Positions 2,017 to 10,629 of a DNA stretch of 64,000 nt are shown piece after piece. The DNA comes from Candidatus Latescibacterota bacterium (GTDB lineage: Bacteria; JAAXHH01): assembly GCA_022822725.1 (NCBI GenBank), contig JAJEAN010000002.1, positions 186,001-250,000 of the forward strand. The letters are read 5' to 3'. Every line of letters starts with the position of its first letter. The first letter of the stretch is position 1. The notes under the pieces are model-generated. The model was not told the origin of the DNA and did not search any database. It was given only the letters and a program-made list of their open reading frames with translations. The position numbers were made by a program, and so were the translations under genes.

Positions 2017-2295
2017 ATGGCGAGACAGAACATGATACTGGGCCTGCAGGCGATCTCGGCGATCGGTATTTTCGCGCTTGGCCTGTTAACCTATTTCGGC
2101 CAGTCGAGCCGGGACCTTCGATTGGAGATGAGACGGGGATTCGAGTCACTCGGGGTGCAAATGAGGGAAGAAAACCGCACCTTCAGAACGGAGATGAAAC
2201 GAGAATTCGCCGCCTTCAGAGCAGAAATGCAAGCAGAATTCGCCGCCTTCAGAGCAGAAATGAAAGCAGACTTCGCCGCTTTCAGAATGGAATAA
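2017..2295 (+). CDS. Membrane-anchored 11-residue-repeat coiled-coil protein, truncated by frameshift
   Basis: The ORF gives 92 aa. A hydrophobic segment (about residues 6-28) is followed by an amphipathic, highly charged helix built of 11-residue units of the type AExKAEFAAFR. A GAGGTG Shine-Dalgarno lies eight bases before the ATG. The 33-bp DNA units are at 2188-2220, 2221-2253 and 2254-2286; the fourth (2287-2317) is only 31 bp. That deletion puts the ORF into a TAA, while the coiled coil continues in another frame to 2401. The full product would be about 128 aa with the N-terminus in the membrane and a cytoplasmic or periplasmic rod. Function unknown. Confidence 0.6.
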   Translation: MARQNMILGLQAISAIGIFALGLLTYFGQSSRDLRLEMRRGFESLGVQMREENRTFRTEMKREFAAFRAEMQAEFAAFRAEMKADFAAFRME

Positions 2296-9542: not shown

Positions 9543-9564
9543 CCGGTATGCCTTCCTGAATTGA

Positions 9565-9631
9565 TCGTCCCAGCCTGAATCGATCATCCCGGTTGATTCT
9601 ATCGTCCCAGCCTGAATCGATCATCCCGATT
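9565..9631. repeat. 37-bp direct duplication after the DUF2339 stop
   Basis: TCGTCCCAGCCTGAATCGAT opens both units (9565 and 9602); the second lacks the last bases. The array begins 23 bp after the DUF2339 stop codon. Confidence 0.85.
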
Positions 9632-9735
9632 AAAAAAACGTGCGAGAGGTTTCAAAAGACCTCCGACTATTTCAATAGACCCTATCGAATTAGTCCATTC
9701 ACATGCGCATCCATTTTTTTTCCGGGAGGTAAATC

Positions 9736-10629
9736 ATGGGAGACGACAAGGTAAAGGAATCGCCGGCTGAGGTGTTCACCACGGTGACGGAGGTGAACGC
9801 ACTCTTCCATTCACTGGAGGACATGTTGGCAACTCGATTCGAGGCGATCGATGGCAAGTTTGGGGTCCTCGAGAAAAACCTGGCCGAAATGGACGCCAGG
9901 AACGAAAGACGATTCGAGGCGATCGATGGCAAGTTTGGGGTCCTCGAGAAAAACCTGGCCGAAATGGACGCCAGGAACGAAAGACGATTCGAGGCGATCG
10001 ATGGCAGGTTTGGGGTCCTCGAGAAAAACCTGGCCGAAATGGACGCCAGGAACGAAAGACGATTCGAGGCGATTGATGGCAAGTTTGGGGTCCTCGAGAA
10101 AAACCTGGCCGAAATGGACGCCAGGAACGAAAGACGATTCGAGGCGATCGATGGCAGGTTTGGGATCCTCGAGAAAAACCTGGCCGAAATGGACGCCAGG
10201 AACGAAAGACGATTCGAGGCGATCGATGGCAGGTTTGGGGTCCTCGAGAAAAACCTGGCCGAAATGGACGCCAGGAACGAAAGACGATTCGAGGCGATCG
10301 ATGGCAAGTTTGGGGTCCTCGAAGAAAAGCTGGCCGAGATGGACGCCAGGAACGAAAGACGATTCGAGGCGATCGATGGCAGGTTTGGGGTCCTCGAAGA
10401 AAAGCTGGCCGAGACGGACGCCAGGAACAGGGTTCAGTTCGCAGCATTAGAGACAATGATTGTGGAGCTGGATACCAAAACCGAGGGGAGATTCGATCTG
10501 GTTGAGCAGAAATTCAAATCTCAGGAATTCAAGATCGAGCATTGCGTGACGTCATCGGCCAACAAACAGTTGATTATGATGCTCGTGATAGCCGGGTCGA
10601 TCATCGCCAGCCTGCTCTACGTCGGCTAG
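9736..10629 (+). CDS. Tail-anchored coiled-coil protein with eight 25-residue repeats
   Basis: A 297-aa protein. After a 33-residue start come eight near-identical 25-residue units (residues 34-233; each begins RFEAIDGKFGVLEKNL and ends in DARNER), then a charged helix and a C-terminal membrane segment (LIMMLVIAGSIIASLLYVG). Hydrophobic residues are spaced 3-4-3-4-3 with an extra step, i.e. 7+7+11, the hendecad stutter of long parallel coiled coils. GGGAGG precedes the ATG. It should project a rod from the membrane. I do not recognise a characterised family; it superficially resembles repeat proteins such as Borrelia Bdr. Confidence 0.75.
   Translation: MGDDKVKESPAEVFTTVTEVNALFHSLEDMLATRFEAIDGKFGVLEKNLAEMDARNERRFEAIDGKFGVLEKNLAEMDARNERRFEAIDGRFGVLEKNLAEMDARNERRFEAIDGKFGVLEKNLAEMDARNERRFEAIDGRFGILEKNLAEMDARNERRFEAIDGRFGVLEKNLAEMDARNERRFEAIDGKFGVLEEKLAEMDARNERRFEAIDGRFGVLEEKLAETDARNRVQFAALETMIVELDTKTEGRFDLVEQKFKSQEFKIEHCVTSSANKQLIMMLVIAGSIIASLLYVG
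9835..10434 (+). repeat. 75-bp coding tandem repeat, eight copies
   Basis: Units start every 75 bp from 9835 (9835, 9910, 9985, 10060, 10135, 10210, 10285, 10360). Copies differ at only a few positions (AAG or AGG at codon 8, a few others); the last two share GAAGAAAAGCTGG. Near identity implies recent expansion or homogenisation, and copy number should vary between strains. Confidence 0.97.

Follow-up and report, generated by a model that had tools for sequence, protein, structure and literature searches.

The window, by which we mean the whole stretch of 64 000 nucleotides that was analysed, belongs to a 3.8-Mb genome in nine contigs (G000), and related contigs are labelled either as 'Candidatus Latescibacterota' or as Gemmatimonadetes MAGs. 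The isolate names point to a sponge-associated genus, and Latescibacterota living with sponges have been described (PMC12993501). A gene beginning with ATG encodes the 297-residue protein studied here, composed of a short head, a long repetitive rod and a tail that ends in a transmembrane helix (Table 1). The gene stands alone on its strand, flanked on one side by a gene for what we take, from its sequence and without a family search, to be a DUF2339 membrane protein and on the other by a convergent gene, likewise assigned, for a homocysteine methyltransferase/MetF protein (BHMT/MetF); these neighbours suggest no partner. A leader hairpin upstream is conserved in the eight species compared but displayed no covariation or compensatory changes, and is therefore weak; it had no Rfam match. 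The intergenic region also contains a 19-bp minisatellite, CCTGAATCGATCATCCCAG, at positions 9555–9627 (3.9 copies according to Tandem Repeats Finder), which several sister species also carry, with different copy numbers, upstream of their rod genes. At positions 2017–2295 (+ strand), a 92-residue ORF has a topology that mirrors that of the rod protein, with a membrane helix at the N-terminus and 11-residue repeats (AEFAAFRAEMK) after it; a relative with 52% identity is located near the rod gene in G003.

Table 1. Features of the rod gene and its leader, with positions in the window.
Feature	Position	Strand	Evidence
Whole gene, 297 aa (head 33, rod 218, tail 46)	9736–10629	+	ORF, syntenic orthologues, dN/dS
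Shine–Dalgarno-like GGGAGG, ATG 6 nt downstream	9724–9729	+	Sequence; all orthologues have a G-rich motif here
Head, 33 residues, degenerate FATVTE neck-type motif	9736–9834	+	Length constant in all orthologues; profile match to short-paralogue head with 92.8% probability
Eight 25-residue (75-bp) units, each 7+18	9835–10434	+	Tandem Repeats Finder, unit table, register parse
Last 18-residue rod block QFAALETMIVELDTKTEG (ninth block)	10435–10488	+	Rod continues through block
Tail, 46 residues, constant length, anchor at end	10489–10626	+	C-terminal region 98.8% profile match to short paralogues
C-terminal transmembrane helix, residues 279–297, small-residue motif VIAGS[IV]IA[SG]LLY conserved	10570–10626	+	Hydropathy; conservation; separate predicted helix 274–296
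Leader hairpin GACTA...TAGTC, upstream of rod gene	9665–9695	+	Alignment and fold, eight species

Tandem Repeats Finder reports the array at positions 9835–10428 with a period of 75, 7.9 copies, a 97% match and a score of 1083, clearly the best array of the whole window, the copy number being possibly off by some units as the array comes from a metagenome assembly. Each 25-residue unit splits into blocks of 7 and 18 residues, RFEAIDG and [KR]FGVLEKNLAEMDARNER. The first six units differ by 0–3 nt (mean of 1.3 per 75 bp), with a single synonymous variant among them, while units 7 and 8 are further diverged and the end of unit 8 is degenerate. The very C-terminus of the protein (residues 279–297) has a mean Kyte–Doolittle hydropathy of 2.4. 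The ORF, the repeat search and the hydropathy profile thus bear out the original prediction of eight near-identical 75-bp units followed by a C-terminal membrane helix, in both coordinates and description.

Ten other species of the genus have an orthologue in the same syntenic position, that of G009 being cut by a contig end. The order DUF2339, rod gene, BHMT/MetF is shared by nine species, both neighbours having been checked in eight other species and the downstream neighbour also in G002; for G009, at the contig end, only the upstream neighbour is present, and in G004 the contig ends inside the DUF2339 gene, so that the absence of the rod gene there is uninformative. No convincing relative of the rod gene was detected outside the genus in the 59 genomes searched. 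The head and the tail have a constant length in all ten complete genes, and their dN/dS is mostly 0.2–0.4, and below 0.55 in all species pairs but one, from which it follows that the gene is translated and constrained; both segments are under purifying selection.

The rod, in turn, spans 68 residues in G010, 75 in G006, 82 in G008, 89 in G002, 107 in G007, 132 in both G003 and G005, 143 in G001, 154 in G011 and 218 in G000. All of these rods are strings of only two kinds of block, one of 7 residues (RFxAIDG type) and one of 18 (KFGVLEKNLAEMDARNER type), the 25-residue unit being one of each (25 = 7+18 = 7+7+11); the final QFAALETMIVELDTKTEG block is missing from G005, G007 and G002 and is found in the other complete orthologues. 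In the optimal 7/18 parse of the rods, Ile, Leu, Met, Phe or Val occupy 280 of the 288 core positions, compared with 64 of 912 other positions, and shuffled rods parsed with the same optimization score far lower. The two blocks hold a single hydrophobic stripe in register. Within the unit, hydrophobic residues are spaced 3-4-3-4-3-4-4, i.e. 7+7+11, with Asn23 at the seventh position of the stripe, and Fourier analysis of the rod gives 3.57 (25/7) as the best period, a value between those of a heptad (3.5) and a straight helix (3.6). Since 285 of 20 000 shuffles match the periodicity of a single unit equally well, the register kept across species is the stronger evidence; both it and the spacing agree with the coiled-coil rod of 7+7+11 pattern that had been proposed.

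The first six units of G000 are near-identical at silent sites too, while the dS of head and tail is roughly 0.06–1.0 between species and at least 0.26 for every pair that includes G000; the array was therefore expanded or homogenized after the species split. A separate expansion took place in G011, in which another 25-residue unit, RFTAIDEKLAAMDEKLAAMDKRNES, is present in four copies that differ on average by 0.5 nt and have the same core positions. Between G002 and G008 the neighbouring BHMT/MetF gene is 98.8% identical, and their rods of 89 and 82 residues are one heptad apart; that the rod genes at these loci (L055 and L059, respectively) are clearly different beside such similar neighbours suggests recombination at the rod locus. 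A change in unit number between related species, as anticipated, is thus observed in the ten complete genes (rods of 68–218 residues), and in place of the fixed copy number with diverged DNA that the original prediction had named as counter-evidence, rod length varies between species. Recombination or slippage between near-identical units would alter the length of the rod, and only changes that leave the hydrophobic stripe in phase would survive, allowing the length to drift freely in whole steps. As the series shows, gain or loss of units preserves the 7/11 register.

AlphaFold predicts one helix over residues 10–272, with a pLDDT of about 90 over the repeats, then a break and a helix at residues 274–296, in a monomer model built from a shallow alignment (seven sequences) with a pTM of 0.28, by a method that readily draws long helices for sequences of this kind. 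The prediction is thus of one continuous helix, and not of the structure devoid of a coiled coil that would have spoken against the earlier proposal. With a rise of 0.1485 nm for each residue, the length of the rod would be about 32 nm in G000 and 10 nm in G010. Such a helix would be expected to self-associate as a parallel dimer or trimer, and the small residues of the VIAGS[IV]IA[SG]LLY anchor, at helix-packing spacing, would fit association within the membrane. The protein has neither a signal peptide nor an N-terminal membrane segment, and its membrane helix lies at the extreme C-terminus, an arrangement typical of tail-anchored proteins with a cytoplasmic N-terminus. The rod therefore probably faces the cytoplasm, and any reach from the membrane would be directed inwards.

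Taken together, these features make it fairly likely that the gene product is a tail-anchored coiled-coil stalk, the length of which evolves by in-register gain and loss of units. Its C-terminus would be inserted into the inner membrane with the rod lying in the cytoplasm, holding a conserved head, which may bind a partner or assemble, some 10–32 nm off the membrane. We infer a function as a membrane-tethered stalk that either displays this small head or uses its rod for assembly.

The same anatomy can be read as a ruler tuned by selection, which in each lineage would fix the rod at the length that keeps the head as far from the membrane as required. A constant head and anchor, a variable rod and steps in register would suit this reading, for which WbdD, in which coil length alters the product, offers a precedent (PMC5082667). 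It is nonetheless unlikely, as the protein lacks a catalytic or recognizable binding head, there is no trait to correlate with length, and length differs even among close relatives. Coiled coils thought to be spacers usually conserve their length (PMC5082667), and because the rod does not, a precise ruler is disfavoured; tolerated length drift accounts for the data equally well as a tuned reach and is the simpler account. We are just as doubtful of an evolvable ruler, in which recombination between near-identical in-register units would shift the reach of the membrane-anchored stalk by a set amount, about 1 nm for every 7 residues or 3.7 nm for every 25, with lineages, and perhaps cells in one sponge, being selected for different lengths. 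Slightly less credible again is a multivalent scaffold in which each unit is a binding site and copy number sets the dose of a partner instead of a distance. The charged surface of the rod is near-identical across the eight repeats and G011 has independently expanded a different unit, which would be in keeping with such a role, but recent duplication explains the identity of units within a species, and between species the surface varies so strongly (the units of G003 and G011 share mainly the core) that no epitope is conserved.

The sponge association of the host, and the frequency of variable coiled-coil stalks among bacterial surface proteins, bring to mind an adhesin-like surface or periplasmic stalk with its rod outside the cytoplasmic membrane. 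The topology signals described above argue against this location, and a Pfam search revealed no outer-membrane anchor domain, making this reading improbable. Finally, an assembly artefact or an untranslated repeat might be suspected from the single metagenome assembly, the near-identity of units 1–6 and a long minus-strand ORF that also crosses the array, although the last is expected for any in-frame repeat. Given the open frames in ten other genomes, the Shine–Dalgarno-like site, the low dN/dS, the conserved flanks and the substitutions that distinguish the units, we give this explanation hardly any weight.

The anatomy of the tail-anchored stalk is well supported and of an ordinary kind; what is unusual is the cleanness of the preserved length series. 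With head, anchor and locus constant, ten complete rods of nine lengths built from two block sizes, one of them (G011) re-expanded independently from a different unit, form a natural series for coiled-coil design, in which the question of whether stalk length matters becomes testable by rod swaps.

The rod family has no model of its own in Pfam or NCBIfam. Matches in Pfam, NCBIfam and PHROGs (DUF2805, Tlp, dynein coiled coil, ABC_tran_CTD and others), several of those in Pfam exceeding the cut-off, were rejected as short chance stretches multiplied by the repeats, most of them having no single stretch that passes alone. XhlA (PF10779) was matched by one orthologue only, below the cut-off (E = 0.33). 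A sequence search of the PDB with the rod protein returned nothing. A phage origin was discarded since no relatives were found in viral contigs or phages, and the plasmids searched yielded just two marginal coiled-coil matches.

The view that no characterized protein has this exact design proved too strong, as the plan is shared by CCDC90/DUF1640 proteins, the Bdr proteins of Borrelia and WbdD, of which the latter two are functional analogues. Bdr proteins have a C-terminal membrane segment, and their repeat carries the KID motif, which is absent from the rod protein sequence. They resemble the rod protein in having a repeat region with a repeat number that varies between near-identical orthologues, exemplified by about nine versus six repeats in otherwise near-identical bdrT orthologues (PMC3303823). 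The repeat sequence is nevertheless different and Bdr proteins form a plasmid- or prophage-borne multigene family. WbdD from Escherichia coli O9a likewise has a cytoplasmic coiled coil on a C-terminal membrane segment, which together keep its catalytic domains at a distance of about 20 nm; the length of the coil changes the O-antigen product (PMC5082667). Its N-terminal kinase and methyltransferase domains, to which no Pfam match was found in the rod protein, contrast with a helical head of only 33 residues, and the relationship is by analogy only. PARCEL (DUF285) repeats also have a 75-bp unit encoding 25 residues, vary in number and often occur in membrane-targeted proteins, but their units are highly diverse and of the WDTSNVTDMxxMFxxAxxFNQDIS type; this identity was excluded by the differing consensus and the lack of a DUF285 match in Pfam.

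Closer relatives exist within the genus, in the form of a short family of 75–85 residues (alignment A2) in which a few heptads link a head to the same anchor, its length varying by one heptad (L025:1420–1674, L027:1462–1695, L029:1462–1686, L030 on the minus strand and L042:1414–1668). Profile comparison with hhalign matched this family to the C-terminal stalk and anchor of the rod protein at 98.8% (61 columns, 39% identity) and to its N-terminal head at 92.8% probability over 32 columns; in G003 and G009 the rod heads are also matched by the A2 model, at 2e-7. No convincing relative of the short family was found outside the genus in 384 genomes. Its anchor is near-invariant (SAAANK...ALVVIAGSIIASLLYTS); the genome of the window yielded no short paralogues, and remnants are present at L043 and L044.

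The closest of the known systems is CCDC90/DUF1640 (PF07798), which comprises mitochondrial MCUR1, CCDC90B, yeast Put6/Put7 and prokaryotic homologues, and which has in common with the rod protein the plan of coiled-coil stalk and C-terminal anchor, and possibly the neck. At the start of the stalk these proteins carry a β-layer motif, [aliphatic]-A-T-K-[polar]-[DE] (PMC4786415), of which the short paralogues display the form [FY]-[AV]-T-K-x-[DE], in L029 and L030 as FATKAD, L029 matching the exact neck form (PMC4786415). At this position most rod heads have FAT[VLM]x[DE], and those of G000 and G005 have FTTVTE. A true CCDC90-like protein occurs across the genus, including the genome of the window (L062, 34.6 bits, the cut-off being 33.5), and its anchor may resemble that of the rod protein (SANNKLM... 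and SAVNKMM..., respectively). This protein (L062:1495–2055; G000:C9:1769507–1769995, minus strand) and its orthologues L060, L061, L063–L066 and L070 have a stalk with 5–10 tandem FATKEDLER-type nonads per species; as nonads of this kind form β-layers (PMC4786415), it may be a relative of MCUR1 with an α/β coiled-coil stalk of variable length. The tail of this protein in the genus is matched weakly by that of the short paralogues (89.2%) and marginally by the rod protein (28.8%). In contrast to CCDC90/DUF1640 proteins, the rod protein has a degenerate neck (F[AT]T-hydrophobic-x-[DE]), a stalk of 7/18 blocks in long near-identical tandem units instead of nonads, and no globular head, as only 33 residues precede the rod and the YPIDTHATVREFEAAGI-type head of L062 is absent; no PF07798 match was detected up to E = 1. 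With neither the profile match nor the head domain found, it is not filed as a member of CCDC90/DUF1640. It is probably a headless offshoot of this stalk–anchor stock that would have descended with the loss of the globular head, which suggests that CCDC90/MCUR1-type neck–stalk–anchor proteins have headless, length-variable bacterial relatives.
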